From a virus, in the IMG/VR virus record IMGVR_UViG_3300008266_000642, positions 1 through 20,299 of that record: DNA of 20,299 nt, one strand, 5' to 3'. Below are positions 9,043 through 14,453 of this stretch, piece by piece; the first letter of the stretch is position 1, and each line of letters begins with the position of its first letter. The position numbers were made by a program, and so were the translations under genes. The notes beneath the pieces are model-generated. The model was given only the letters and a program-made list of their open reading frames with translations. It ran no database searches and was not told where the DNA came from.

Positions 9043-9414
9043 ATGGCTAGTAAATTTGATCAAAAAATATTTAAAGATAAAACCTTTTCAGGTTTATTAG
9101 AAGATATTTATAATGATTCAAAGAAAAAAGAAAAAACTATTGAATCCTTAGTTAAAGAACTTTCTCTTCAAATTACAGATCCAGGAACTGCTACAGTAAT
9201 AGTTCCTCTAATAACAGGTTATCTTGAATTATCTGTAAAAAATTCTGATAACCTAGTTAAAATGGCTGGTATTATACAACGTTTCTTAAATAGTTCTAAT
9301 AGTAATGATGATGAAGGGGGTAGTTTAATATCAGAAAAAGAGAAAGAACAATTAATGAGAGATATAAAAGAACTTACCAGCGTTGCTGGAGAAATTGAGG
9401 ATAGTATAAAATGA
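9043..9414 (+). CDS. Hypothetical protein, first gene of tail block
   Basis: A 123-residue helical protein, unrecognised. It starts MASKFDQKIFKDKTFSGLLE, then a charged segment (NDSKKKEKTIESLVKEL), a moderately hydrophobic middle (TATVIVPLITGYLELSVKN) and a serine/asparagine/acidic linker before a final glutamate/lysine-rich helix. No membrane span long enough to be convincing. Its ATG is 14 nt after the core of the candidate late promoter and its stop overlaps the next start (ATGA), so it is probably co-translated with the hub protein; a chaperone or minor baseplate role is possible but not shown. Confidence 0.6.
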   Translation: MASKFDQKIFKDKTFSGLLEDIYNDSKKKEKTIESLVKELSLQITDPGTATVIVPLITGYLELSVKNSDNLVKMAGIIQRFLNSSNSNDDEGGSLISEKEKEQLMRDIKELTSVAGEIEDSIK

Positions 9415-10292
9415 GTTTAAACGGATTAAAAGGATCAGGAAAATTAAATCTTAAATCTCCATATAGATTAGGAAATTTTACTCCTTCTTTAAATACAGGA
9501 AATACAGGAAATATTTCCTCCCCATCATCCTCTCCTTCTTTAACATATGCTAGAGTAAAAGATGTATGTACTTCTCCTGATCATCCATTATATAATACTT
9601 TAGGAATTAAAAGTTTAGGTGCTGTTGTTTTACAAAATATATCATCAAATATATTAACAGGAGATGAACAAGAAGTAAATTACTCTAATTCAGGTCTTTT
9701 TATAGCATTTCCTTTATTTCCTAATATAAAAAATTATCCATTAAAGGGAGAAATAGTAATAACATTATTCGCTCCAAATTTCACCAGTCAAAATACATCT
9801 ACTAATGTTTCTTCATATTACATATGTCCCGCTAATATATGGAATAATACGCATCATAACGCTTTACCAGATACTAGAGGTAGTGAAGAAAATCAAAGTA
9901 TTACTACTAATGAAACCTATTATAATGATATTCCTTCTAATGAAGGATCTACAGAAATAGGACAAGATATAGAATTAGGAGATTTCTTTACTGAAAGTGA
10001 ATATATAAAAAATTTATTACCATATGAAGGAGATATTATATATGAAGGAAGATTTGGTAATAGTATTAGATTTAGCTCAACAAATAGAGATACTAATATA
10101 AATAATAACTGGTCTGAAGCTGGAGATAATGGTGATCCTTTAACAATTATAAGAGTAAAAAAATTCACCATAGAAGATGCATCAGTAGGTCTAGAAGAAA
10201 CTCCACCTGCTTTAGAAGATATTAATAATGATGATTCATCAATTTGGATTACTAGTACTCAAAAAATTCCTATAGATATAAATTTCTTATAA
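9411..10292 (+). CDS. Baseplate hub/OB-fold-like structural protein
   Basis: A 293-residue protein. The start is basic and then serine/asparagine-rich (to about 45). A beta-rich body follows: FIAFPLFPNIKNYPLKGEIV (about 97-116), VITLFAP, a variable N/T-rich loop, then EGDIIYEGRFGNSIRFSSTN (206-225) and DPLTIIRVKK. A G-E-V/I strand followed by GRFGNSIRF is what I associate with the OB-fold N-domain of gp5-like baseplate hub proteins, which connects the tail tube to the needle. The following two genes encode a peptidoglycan peptidase and a needle-like protein, so it looks like the OB-fold module of a split gp5. Overlaps the preceding gene by ATGA. Fold assignment is moderate. Confidence 0.55.
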   Translation: MSLNGLKGSGKLNLKSPYRLGNFTPSLNTGNTGNISSPSSSPSLTYARVKDVCTSPDHPLYNTLGIKSLGAVVLQNISSNILTGDEQEVNYSNSGLFIAFPLFPNIKNYPLKGEIVITLFAPNFTSQNTSTNVSSYYICPANIWNNTHHNALPDTRGSEENQSITTNETYYNDIPSNEGSTEIGQDIELGDFFTESEYIKNLLPYEGDIIYEGRFGNSIRFSSTNRDTNINNNWSEAGDNGDPLTIIRVKKFTIEDASVGLEETPPALEDINNDDSSIWITSTQKIPIDINFL

Positions 10293-10293
10293 T

Positions 10294-11253
10294 ATGGCTT
10301 CACAAAATTCAGTAGGAGTAAATAATAGTACTATCCCTCCAGTACCAACCATTCCACCTCCCCAACAACCTGAAATTTCTCCTGTTCAACAAGATCAAGA
10401 ACAAGTCCAAACGGAATTAACAAGTACAACTGAAGAAACTATTACCCCTTTAGTTACAGGTTCAATTATAGAAGAAGAAACAGAAGGAGTTATTTATGTA
10501 CTAGATAGTGATGAAGAATTTGTTGAAGAATCATTTACTGAAGAATTAATTAATATAGTTGAAGATGAATCCCAATATCAAGATTTCTCTGCTCCTCCAA
10601 ATACTATAGTAGATAAAGATATAGAAAAATATCCTTCTTTAGGCCCCCCATTTGCAGATAATAAAATGATAAAACGTATTAAATGTAGATTAGTAGATGG
10701 AAAACCGGTAAAAGAGGAATTAATAATACCCTTTATTAATATGAAAGAAGCTTGTTTAAATGAAACAAGGATCCCATTACTAATAACTAGTGGTTACAGA
10801 CCAGCATATGAAAATATTATTTATAAAAATAAAAAAATTGCCCAATCTCAAAGAGAATTAAGAGAACAAAATGTTATTAATAAAGGAAAATATAAGGAAG
10901 TATGGAAATATACTACTACTGTAATATCAACAGGTAAACAAATAACTCTTACTTCTGGATATTTCAAACCAGAAACAGCAGCCGCAGGTAGTTCTAACCA
11001 TGGTAATGGTGATGCCTTAGATTTTAATACAGGAACAAGAAGAGCTCTTTCAGGATTTGGCCCTTTAAATGAAATATTATATACATGGTTAATTAATAAT
11101 TCATGGAAATATGGGTTTGTAAGAACTGTATCAAATGAAGAATGGCATTGGGAGTATTTACCTACCTTATCAGGAAAAACTCCTACAAATCCCTATGTTG
11201 TATTAAAAAAATCAAACGATAATCGATTTTATTCCGATCTAAATATAGTATGA
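10294..11253 (+). CDS. Tail-associated M15 peptidase (D-Ala-D-Ala/endopeptidase type)
   Basis: A 319-residue protein. Residues 1-115 are proline-, glutamine- and glutamate-rich and probably disordered. Residues about 125-295 form an M15 (VanY/L-Ala-D-Glu) zinc peptidase: LLITSGYRP (R169), the S-x-H-x-x-G-x-A-x-D box as SSNHGNGDALD with ligands H236 and D243, and EEWHWEY with ligand H285 and the catalytic glutamate at E282/E283. Such enzymes cut peptide bridges of peptidoglycan. Encoded between OB-fold-like and needle-like baseplate proteins, it is likely carried on the tail and opens the wall during injection rather than serving as a lysis endolysin. It starts one base after the preceding stop (TAATATG) and ends in an ATGA overlap. 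Confidence 0.82.
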   Translation: MASQNSVGVNNSTIPPVPTIPPPQQPEISPVQQDQEQVQTELTSTTEETITPLVTGSIIEEETEGVIYVLDSDEEFVEESFTEELINIVEDESQYQDFSAPPNTIVDKDIEKYPSLGPPFADNKMIKRIKCRLVDGKPVKEELIIPFINMKEACLNETRIPLLITSGYRPAYENIIYKNKKIAQSQRELREQNVINKGKYKEVWKYTTTVISTGKQITLTSGYFKPETAAAGSSNHGNGDALDFNTGTRRALSGFGPLNEILYTWLINNSWKYGFVRTVSNEEWHWEYLPTLSGKTPTNPYVVLKKSNDNRFYSDLNIV

Positions 11254-11735
11254 GTTATACACCTGCAATCCCCTCAGAATTCTCCGAACCTCAGATTATA
11301 TTTCAATCTGATAGAGTATTACTTAATGCTAAGAATGATAGTATTCTATTATTTGGAGATAAAGCCATTATATTAACTTCTAGAGGTAATACTCACTTAG
11401 ATAGTACTGGTACAATTATATTAAATTCAACAGTAGATAAAAAAATACAATTAGGAAAAGAAGCAAGTGAACCTTTATTATTAGGTAATAAAACAATGAA
11501 TGAGTTAAATACATTTTTAACCCAACTAAATACATTTCTAATTCAAATGAATACATTTACTAATAGTTTAAATGCTGTTGTAGTTACTACCCCTGCAGGA
11601 CCTGGATCTTTAACCCCAGGTATTACTCCTATAACATCTAATTTAACCTCAGCTATTTCTACATTCCAATCAACTGTTAATAGTTTTAAAGGAAAATTAG
11701 AATCATTAAAAAGTAAACAAAATTTTACCTTATAA
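11250..11735 (+). CDS. Needle/spike-like baseplate protein (gp5 C-terminal type)
   Basis: A 161-residue protein in two halves. Residues 14-80 are short alternating beta segments (PQIIFQSDRVLLNAKNDSIL, LFGDKAIILTSRGNTHLDS, TGTIILNSTVDKKIQLGKEA) of the kind found in the triple-stranded beta-prism of gp5 and VgrG needles. Residues 86-106 are three 7-residue units (LNTFLTQ, LNTFLIQ, MNTFTNS), probably a trimeric coiled coil, followed by a proline/glycine-rich linker and a last helix (LTSAISTFQSTVNSFKGKLE). It overlaps the M15 peptidase by ATGA. A trimeric membrane-piercing needle is the most likely role; a fibre-type protein is an alternative. Confidence 0.55.
   Translation: MSYTPAIPSEFSEPQIIFQSDRVLLNAKNDSILLFGDKAIILTSRGNTHLDSTGTIILNSTVDKKIQLGKEASEPLLLGNKTMNELNTFLTQLNTFLIQMNTFTNSLNAVVVTTPAGPGSLTPGITPITSNLTSAISTFQSTVNSFKGKLESLKSKQNFTL
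11505..11567 (+). repeat. Three 21-nt in-frame repeats
   Basis: The units share AATACATTT and lie exactly 21 nt apart (AAATACATTT at 11507 and 11528, GAATACATTT at 11549), encoding three successive L/M-NTF-containing heptads. Confidence 0.6.
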
Positions 11736-11759: not shown

Positions 11760-12161
11760 ATGAAGTTATCTGTTTTTAAACAACTAATCAAAGAAGCAAT
11801 CAGAGAAGAATTACAAAGTGAATTGAAACAAATGGAAAGACGTATTTTAAAAGAAATGCGTCAGGGAAATAAAATTGAACATATTTCCCCTACCCCCTCT
11901 ATATCAACTCCTGCACCTGTTAATAAAATTGATACAGAGCAAAAATCTGCTTTAAGAGAAATGTTTTTGCAAAAAATGGGAGGACCGTTAGGAGAAATAA
12001 TGTCTGAAACTGTTAATAAAATTGATTTTACAAGTGAAGATTTATTTGAAGAAGATTCAGCTCCTTCAGTATTAGATGGACCTTTAAATTTCTTAAATAA
12101 AGATTATTCATCAACTTTAAAAGCAATGGAAAATTCTCAAAAACAAAGAAATAATTCTTAA
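11760..12161 (+). CDS. Hypothetical virion-region protein with REE-type N-terminus
   Basis: A 133-residue protein, unrecognised. It begins with an amphipathic helix, LSVFKQLIKEAIREELQSEL (residues 3-22), followed by another charged helix, a proline/threonine/serine linker and two helical pieces with GGPLGEIM and SVLDGPLNFLNKD. The N-terminal helix resembles that of the gene at 14514 (LRQIIREEI), and both genes directly follow an ATATTTAT element. It sits between the needle-like protein and gp25. Gene position suggests a baseplate assembly or minor structural role, not a shown function. Confidence 0.6.
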   Translation: MKLSVFKQLIKEAIREELQSELKQMERRILKEMRQGNKIEHISPTPSISTPAPVNKIDTEQKSALREMFLQKMGGPLGEIMSETVNKIDFTSEDLFEEDSAPSVLDGPLNFLNKDYSSTLKAMENSQKQRNNS

Positions 12162-12163
12162 TT

Positions 12164-12583
12164 ATGCCTCTTAGAAGACAAAGGGATATATTTAAAATTG
12201 AACCTATAGATACTCAAAAAAGTACTGCTGTAGGTATAAGTTATCCTTTTGATAATAGAATATTTAATTCTACTTATACTACTAGAGAACAACTAAAATC
12301 AAATTTAATTAATTATCTTTTAACTAATAAAGGAGAAAAATTATTTGATCCTAATTTTGGAGCAGATTTAAAATATCAATTATTTGAACCAATGAATGAT
12401 ACTAGTCAATTTAGAATAACTAGTGCTCTAACTGAAGAACTTGAATTTTATATACCTCAAATAAAAATATCTGCATTCAATTACAATCCTGTTTTTGATA
12501 AAAACCGAGTTGAGATAAATATTGAATTTATATATTTATTGGATAATGCTACAGACACAGTTAATATACAAGTAAATGGCTAA
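12164..12583 (+). CDS. gp25: Baseplate wedge protein gp25 (GPW/gp25 family)
   Basis: A 139-residue member of the GPW/gp25 family, the sheath-initiating wedge protein of contractile tails. It shows ISYPFD (25-30), a helix TREQLKSNLINYLLTNKGEK and the family hallmark LLTNKGEKLFDPNFGADLKY, followed by LFEP; the C-terminal half is two beta strands (IKISAFNYNP, VEINIEFIYLL). Size is that of T4 gp25 (about 130 residues). It begins 2 nt after the previous stop (TAA-TT-ATG) and overlaps the gp6 gene by 8 nt, reflecting the gpW-gpJ order conserved across contractile-tail phages. High confidence. Confidence 0.92.
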   Translation: MPLRRQRDIFKIEPIDTQKSTAVGISYPFDNRIFNSTYTTREQLKSNLINYLLTNKGEKLFDPNFGADLKYQLFEPMNDTSQFRITSALTEELEFYIPQIKISAFNYNPVFDKNRVEINIEFIYLLDNATDTVNIQVNG

Positions 12584-14453
12584 TAATACTAATCTTCCAA
12601 AAGAGATAAAATATATAGGTAAAGATTTTAATAATTTAAAACAAAATCTAATTGATTTTGCTAAAACATATTATCCTCAAACCTATAATGATTTCACCAC
12701 TTCTTCTCCAGGTATGATGTTTATGGAAATGTCTTCATATGTTGGAGATGTTTTATCATACTATTTAGATACTCAAATACAAGAGAATTTTATATTATTT
12801 ACCAAAGAAAAGGAAAACTTATTAAATTTAGCATATTTTTTAGGATATACACCAAAATTATCAACAGCAGCTGTTGTTGAATTAGATGTATATCAACTAT
12901 TACCCTCTAAATTAAGTGGAAGTACATACCTACCAGATTTTGACTATACATTAAGAATAGAAAAAGAAGCCTCAATAACTCCTAAATCAGCAACAGGGGT
13001 ATCATTTCTTACTCAATCCCCTATTAATTTTGCTCTTTCGAGTTCAATAGATCCTACCGAAATTTCAGTTTATCAATATGATATTTCAAATAATCCTACA
13101 TATTATTTATTAAAGAAAAAAGTAAAAGCAATATCTGCTAATATTAAAACAATTGAATTTAGTGTAGGAGAAATTCAAAAATATCTAACAATAAACTTCT
13201 CAGACAGTAATATGTTAGGAATTTTAGATATTACAGATAGTGATGGAAACAAATGGTATGAAGTACCATATCTTGCACAAGATACAATTTTTGAAGAAAT
13301 TGCTTTAGATCCTATGACTAATCCTGATTATGATGATATAAAAGGTGATGCTTCATATATGCTTAGACTTAAAAAAGTATCAAGAAGATTTGTAACAAGG
13401 ATAAAAGGAGATAATAGTATTGATATTCAATTTGGAGCAGGTACTAGTTCAGATGATGATGAAGTAATAACCCCTAATCCAGATAATGTTGGTTTAGGAT
13501 TAGTAGATAGTTTATCTAAAATTGATTTAGCATATGATCCTACTAATTTTATTTATACAAAAACATATGGTATTCCTCCCTCAAATACAACTTTAACAAT
13601 TAGATATTTAGTAGGAGGAGGAGTAGAAGCAAATATACCCTCAAATACATTAAATTCTAAAAAATTAGTAACAGTAACTAATCCTCTTCCAAACTCATCT
13701 TTAAAATCACAAATAATAGATTCACTAGCATTTAATAACCCTGCAGCAGCAGATGGTGGGAAAAGTGGTGATACTTTAGATGATATTAGATTAAATTCAA
13801 TATCAGCATTTTCAACTCAATTAAGAGCTGTAACTAAAGATGATTATTTATTACGGGTTTTAAGTATGCCTGCTAGATATGGTAGTATTGCTAAAGCTTT
13901 TATTACTAAAGATGATCAATTAAATGTATTTAATAATGAAAGAATACCAAACCCCTTAGCTCTTAATTTATACGTATTAAATTATGATAATAGTAAAAAA
14001 TTAACTCTAGCTTCTGATATATCAAAAACCAATCTTAAAACATATCTAAGACAATATAGAATGGAAACAGATGCTATTAATATACTTGATGGATATATTA
14101 TTAATGTTGGTTTAAAATTTGATATTACAGTATTAAGTAGCTTTAATAGTCAAGAAGTTTTAGTAAATTGTATAAATGCACTAAAAACATATTTTGATAT
14201 TAGTAAATGGAATTACAATCAACCTATCCTTATAACAGATGTTATTAATACAATAGCATCAATAAAAGGTGTTCAGTCAGTAATAGGAATTAGATTTGAA
14301 AATAAAGTAGGAGAAGATTTAGGGTATAGTAAATATAGTTATGATTTAGAAAGTGCTACTAAAAATGGTGTTATTTACCCATCTATGGACCCTGCAATAT
14401 TTGAAATAAAATACCCTGATCAAGATATAGAAGGAAGAGTAGTAACATATTAA
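12576..14453 (+). CDS. gp6: Baseplate wedge protein gp6 (gpJ-like)
   Basis: A 625-residue protein, close to the roughly 660 of T4 gp6. The N-terminal part has the family's best-kept block: FTTSSPGMMFMEMSSYVGDV followed by LSYYLDTQ (about 40-67), then NLLNLAYFLGYTP. A long beta-rich middle contains RFVTRIKGDNSIDIQFGAG and GVEANIPSNTL, as in baseplate J proteins, and the C-terminal dimerisation part has VTKDDYLLRVLSMPARYGSI and TDVINTIASIKGVQSV. gp6 dimers clamp gp7 and gp25 into the wedge and form the inner baseplate ring. Overlaps gp25 by 8 nt. Its end is followed by a 60-nt gap with a promoter-like element. Confidence 0.92.
   Translation: MANNTNLPKEIKYIGKDFNNLKQNLIDFAKTYYPQTYNDFTTSSPGMMFMEMSSYVGDVLSYYLDTQIQENFILFTKEKENLLNLAYFLGYTPKLSTAAVVELDVYQLLPSKLSGSTYLPDFDYTLRIEKEASITPKSATGVSFLTQSPINFALSSSIDPTEISVYQYDISNNPTYYLLKKKVKAISANIKTIEFSVGEIQKYLTINFSDSNMLGILDITDSDGNKWYEVPYLAQDTIFEEIALDPMTNPDYDDIKGDASYMLRLKKVSRRFVTRIKGDNSIDIQFGAGTSSDDDEVITPNPDNVGLGLVDSLSKIDLAYDPTNFIYTKTYGIPPSNTTLTIRYLVGGGVEANIPSNTLNSKKLVTVTNPLPNSSLKSQIIDSLAFNNPAAADGGKSGDTLDDIRLNSISAFSTQLRAVTKDDYLLRVLSMPARYGSIAKAFITKDDQLNVFNNERIPNPLALNLYVLNYDNSKKLTLASDISKTNLKTYLRQYRMETDAINILDGYIINVGLKFDITVLSSFNSQEVLVNCINALKTYFDISKWNYNQPILITDVINTIASIKGVQSVIGIRFENKVGEDLGYSKYSYDLESATKNGVIYPSMDPAIFEIKYPDQDIEGRVVTY

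Follow-up and report, generated by a model that had tools for sequence, protein, structure and literature searches.

A putative contractile-tail spike encoded by three genes, with an exchangeable cell wall enzyme slot between base and needle

The textbook example of a cell-puncturing device is T4 gp5, and our understanding of why its enzyme is cut from the needle comes from that one phage. Proteolysis between Ser351 and Ala352 severs the chain within the stretch linking the lysozyme to the needle; the lysozyme is about 10% active with the needle present, and loss of the needle restores its activity (PMC3004832). The lysozyme occupies residues 174-339 of gp5 and the first antiparallel needle strands occupy residues 389-427 (PMC4576200). 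A gp5-like spike carrying a wall hydrolase is already known, as are hub hydrolases in other arrangements, since RaK2 gp078 and Anabaena phage A-1(L) gp15 place such enzymes differently in their hub proteins (PMC3622015, PMC10966104). Here, we analyzed a 20.3-kb virus fragment (20,299 nt, IMG/VR record IMGVR_UViG_3300008266_000642; hereafter, the window), in which three consecutive genes carry comparable modules.

Three genes in a baseplate operon

The three open reading frames (Table 1) are present as the initial annotation had described them. It had also called them overlapping genes, which is true of the M15/needle pair, whereas the base and M15 genes abut with a gap of one nucleotide. Because a small gene, gp25 and gp6 lie downstream, the three-gene locus represents the hub section of a baseplate operon for a contractile tail.

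Table 1. Features of the spike locus and its neighbors in the window
Feature	Positions	Strand	Description
Conserved small gene 5′ of base	9043..9414	+	Overlaps base via ATGA; same position in L003, L004 and L005
Spike base gene	9411..10292	+	293 aa; predicted disordered N-terminus, OB fold ~43-155, second beta domain/neck ~205-290
Base/cassette junction TAATATG	10290..10296	+	1-nt gap (sequence); same junction in L003
Cassette gene	10294..11253	+	319 aa; acidic proline-rich linker 1-125, VanY-type M15 zinc peptidase 146-290
Cassette/needle junction ATGA	11250..11253	+	4-nt overlap (sequence); also where sister contig L002 ceases to match the window
Needle gene	11250..11735	+	161 aa; predicted ~78 extended residues, then a helical hairpin and a strand at the C-terminus
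Conserved small gene between needle and gp25	11760..12161	+	Same position in relatives
Baseplate wedge protein gp25	12164..12583	+	Pfam GPW_gp25 2.4e-8; phrog_261 1.6e-18
Baseplate wedge protein gp6	12576..14453	+	phrog_10646 3.3e-19; phrog_219 9.7e-16

Two trivial origins of the split were considered. A sequencing error was ruled out by the same three-gene order in the relative L003 and by the 97 non-identical split loci among the matches listed. A programmed frameshift joining the chains was also rejected; the spacing at the needle junction is mixed across loci (most commonly -1 and +1 nt), and a single type of frame change could not join the chains in all of them.

The surroundings hold several further features. 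Close to the baseplate genes, window:8297-9019 encodes a conserved protein of 240 aa that looks like a phage late sigma factor by eye and has no Pfam match. Genes for a hexapeptide transferase and a family-2 glycosyltransferase stand before the tail genes (window:1-3712) and perhaps serve surface or virion sugars. Most relatives carry an extra gene of ~260-870 aa between the needle and a 120-aa gene (for example, L005:10393-11508 and L039:2756-3580), many copies of which look helical; it is absent from the window and L003, and Mel-JY01 encodes an endolysin/chitinase-like protein at this place.

Base, needle and enzyme

In three sequenced phages with the same operon (Mel-JY01, immuto and LR756508), homologues of the 9411 and 11250 products form one chain with no enzyme between them, and one chain is likewise found in 108 of the IMG/VR loci listed. 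Therefore, the two products are the base and needle of one spike, and the earlier proposal that the flanking genes encode parts of a single device was borne out. The last residues of the window's base (...TSTQKIPIDINFL) coincide with the point at which the fused chains enter their needle part, and the needle homologue makes up the C-terminal part of the fused spike chain. As regards a separate, full gp5 gene elsewhere in the genome, all 11 of the longer relatives compared carry just one base gene, the two matches in immuto being pieces of one gene.

The 9411 product matched no Pfam or PHROG family. Its AlphaFold model, built with 94 homologues, shows an OB fold and a second small beta domain, with a mean pLDDT of 78.7 and core blocks near or above 90. 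Thus, the OB-fold-like character given to this protein in the initial annotation was recovered in the predicted model but describes only part of it, since the model reaches past the OB fold. All listed chains aligning with the model over more than 110 residues are spikes of contractile machines, among them T4 gp5, VgrG, P1, P2 gpV, Mu, PVC, AFP and others, with Z values of 5.4-6.4. Its structural matches are mostly OB-fold proteins and spikes, at Z values of 5-6.4, which are below the level excluding chance, and at Foldseek E values of at least 0.18; given these modest scores, the spike fold serves as support, not proof. A PDB search with the sequence profiles of base and needle matched no spike.

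The needle model (AlphaFold, pLDDT 88) comprises ~78 extended residues with almost no internal strands, followed by a helical hairpin, and the extended stretch is predicted to resemble one chain of an intertwined beta-helix. In Foldseek, the PDB matches of the monomer were all helical and BFVD gave no meaningful match, as expected for a model of one chain of a putative trimer. DUF2345, a domain known from VgrG proteins, scored 15.9 bits against the window's needle, under the Pfam cut-off of 30.7, and was weakly matched by 21 of 94 needle homologues.

For the middle protein, the annotated M15 peptidase with zinc ligands H236, D243 and H285 was confirmed. Pfam VanY matches residues 146-290 at 34.4 bits (cut-off 25), the three ligands align with invariant residues of a homologue (L148), and 9 of 10 homologues retain the complete set. 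Among solved structures, D-alanyl-D-alanine carboxypeptidases come closest (E 0.004). We take the 10294 product as a putative peptidoglycan peptidase. Used alone as a query, the M15 sequence found few relatives. Among the loci listed, VanY-M15 domains homologous to the window's are fused to the base in nine and form a separate protein only in the window; because of these fusions, the M15 enzyme belongs with the spike. One base-fused M15 homologue (L200:3753-5117) lacks the stretch holding the first two zinc ligands; it may have lost activity and been retained in a structural role.

An exchangeable slot between base and needle

We scanned IMG/VR with base and gp6 alignments, each of which gave at least 570 confirmed relatives, and took a census of the 208 non-identical loci that hold both base and needle among the matches listed. 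In 111 of these, base and needle are fused and enzyme-free, joined by a linker of at most 25 aa; the other 97 are split. An insert lies between base and needle in 80 of the split loci listed, fused to the base in 59 and encoded by a separate gene in 21, and in none of the 80 does it share a chain with the needle. The remaining 17 split loci have no recognised insert and include one with a 2.2-kb gap (L220).

Inserts were typed by Pfam domains at E values up to 0.001 in 74 representatives, which yielded Peptidase_M15_3 in 24, Amidase_2 in 12, VanY in 9, C39_2 in 6 and Glucosaminidase and SLT in 1 each; PHROGs added a lambda-type endolysin and an amidase. The L003 and L232 inserts share a Cys...GHIG...EFNT pattern, which suggests a papain-like hydrolase. 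By these assignments, most inserts are wall hydrolases, and the enzymes found in the slot are of eight or more kinds (M15_3, VanY-M15, Amidase_2, C39, transglycosylase, glucosaminidase, lambda-type endolysin and papain-like). Three insert groups (L086, L228 and L047) were not recognisable as enzymes with Pfam or PHROG. Two loci have unusual base genes. L101:1247-4222 holds two tandem base genes, fused to a lambda-type endolysin and a C39 peptidase, respectively, followed by one needle gene, and could encode a spike with mixed enzymes. In L110:1-1529, the base frame is interrupted before a glucosaminidase cassette, by either a sequencing error or decay of the gene.

Exchange of the cassette can be followed in two close relatives. 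Of the listed matches that span the complete slot, L003 is the closest to the window, with 75% identity in gp6, 73% in the needle and ~55% in the base. Its linker is homologous to the window's and has been kept (score 125, shuffles 41 +/- 8), whereas its enzyme domain is unrelated (score 34, shuffles 35 +/- 6). The linker of the Mel-JY01 endolysin has no detectable homology to that of the window. In L002, only 27 of 5076 positions differ from the window from the needle on (99.5% identical), and the match breaks at the needle start codon; the 46 bases 5′ of it are unrelated to the window and end another reading frame. These 46 bases are all of the L002 cassette that the contig contains, and they are absent from other contigs. 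The contig ends just 5′ of the breakpoint (L002:1-46 versus window:11204-11249), as if differences between strains in the cassette had interrupted the assembly. On the base tree, there were at least 6 changes of insert state, at least 19 of insert class and at least 8 between separate and base-fused forms. On these comparisons, exchange of the cassette is both recent and repeated.

Immuto infects Flavobacterium, and of three genome-collection contigs two were binned as Winogradskyella and Flavobacteriaceae; the recorded source of Mel-JY01 is Microcystis. The hosts are probably Bacteroidota, and the slot would then represent a collection of wall enzymes matched to such hosts. It also suggests a way for a phage to switch the enzyme that breaches the wall while leaving the rest of the tail as it is.

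Putative mechanism and comparison with known spikes

Overall, we consider it probable that the three genes encode a contractile-tail spike consisting of a base, a tail-borne peptidase at the junction slot and a needle, with a gene boundary replacing the T4 cut. The 9411 product would form the spike base (OB fold and neck), and the 11250 product would form the needle that continues it, assembled as trimers in the virion. The 10294 product would be a peptidoglycan peptidase carried on the tail at the base/needle junction, and the linker is the obvious candidate for holding this separate protein in place. The junction would act as a slot that is empty in fused spikes and elsewhere occupied by a lysin, either fused to the base or encoded by its own coupled gene, and often replaced. 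By analogy, the gene boundary would do the job of the T4 cut, with base and enzyme staying with the tube; the needle would pierce and fall off, and the peptidase would then open the wall.

We propose this role for the boundary because none of the 80 inserts among the loci listed is fused to the needle, though 59 are fused to the base; this difference between the two sides of the slot is what speaks most strongly for a functional role. A test of enzyme/needle separation on independent pairs was not significant, with too few pairs, and the rule is not statistically proven because there are few independent changes of state. A Fisher p-value for insert versus split was set aside, as related loci are not independent. 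Since this large spike family has had base, enzyme and needle joined, split and exchanged many times, the rule that enzyme and needle never share a chain is directly testable. We tentatively extend the proposal to widespread uncultivated T4-like baseplates, in which an enzyme/needle gene boundary with an exchangeable lysin slot might, with somewhat less than even likelihood, substitute for maturation cleavage.

The boundaries may instead exist, unrelated to needle shedding, because recombination can then exchange the cassette between a conserved base gene and a conserved needle gene. The breakpoint of L002 at the needle start codon and the repeated changes of insert class on the base tree are what such exchange would leave. 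However, the base-side boundary is missing for most inserts and the needle-side boundary for none among the loci listed, and exchange alone predicts no such asymmetry, so that we regard this explanation as a serious alternative but unlikely on balance. It is quite improbable that the M15 gene lies in the baseplate operon by chance and encodes an ordinary endolysin or another protein that is not part of the virion. Although it is a separate gene in the window and M15-type domains are annotated as endolysins in other phages, its homologues are fused to the base in nine loci, the linker recurs in L003 ahead of a different enzyme domain, and the same slot is filled throughout the 80 loci listed.

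The initial annotation read the locus as a T4 gp5 hub split into three genes, with the lysozyme swapped for an M15 peptidase and the modules in the same order. That base, enzyme and needle belong to one spike was upheld; a simple split of gp5 with a swapped lysozyme was not, because no enzyme separates base from needle in the unsplit relatives, and the slot of split relatives takes many enzyme kinds. A descent from a gp5-type single chain, split and refitted with M15 in place by the window's phage, would account for the same general modules and the similar neighborhood before gp6, and gp5 (1k28) does align to the base model over 149 residues (model 40-293, gp5 6-441). Nevertheless, we found no detectable homology to gp5 when base, needle and fused spike were compared with 7 gp5 sequences by hhalign (probability <1, E 0.25-0.4), and the enzyme is absent from all 111 fused relatives listed. 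The slot also appears to lie elsewhere. The alignment reaches gp5 residue 441, beyond the lysozyme, which suggests that the second beta domain of the base matches the first needle strands of gp5; judged from these alignment ranges, the slot probably sits after the neck, that is, after the first beta-prism strands, and the T4 lysozyme before it. Such a descent is therefore improbable.

Returning to the putative three-gene spike, its predicted base fold (OB plus strands) aligns with VgrG, P2 gpV, P1, Mu, pyocin and PVC-type spikes over 114-137 residues, and the weak DUF2345 signal in the needle is a further likeness to the VgrG type; in contrast, a gp27-like part is missing from the chain of the fused relatives. 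The literature searched describes no such spike with a slot for an enzyme between its neck and needle, nor did we find, in the openly accessible literature, a slot with at least eight enzyme kinds apart from the needle chain. The Far-T4 reference phage RM378 gave no base match and one needle-like match (E 5e-7). The enzyme follows the beta-helix in RaK2 gp078 and lies within the hub protein itself in A-1(L) gp15, whereas the slot in the window precedes a separate needle gene. The cassette resembles VanY-type M15 peptidases in Pfam score and zinc ligands and differs in its acidic linker and its place in a tail spike operon.

The closest comparison is with T4 gp5. An OB-type base, a peptidoglycan hydrolase and a needle at the hub are known in T4 and predicted here; gene 5 also precedes gene 6 in T4, and gp25 and gp6 are directly downstream here. 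In both, enzyme and needle end on separate chains, through a cut in T4 and through a gene boundary here. However, one gene in T4 corresponds to three in the window, the lysozyme within the T4 chain to a separate M15 peptidase gene, and the window's needle is predicted to end in a helical hairpin. The locus falls outside the gp5 family by sequence and by the lysozyme, and by analogy it would work like gp5. What appears new, on the genes compared, is a readily exchanged lysin cassette slot in a gp5-like spike, with the enzyme kept apart from the needle chain.
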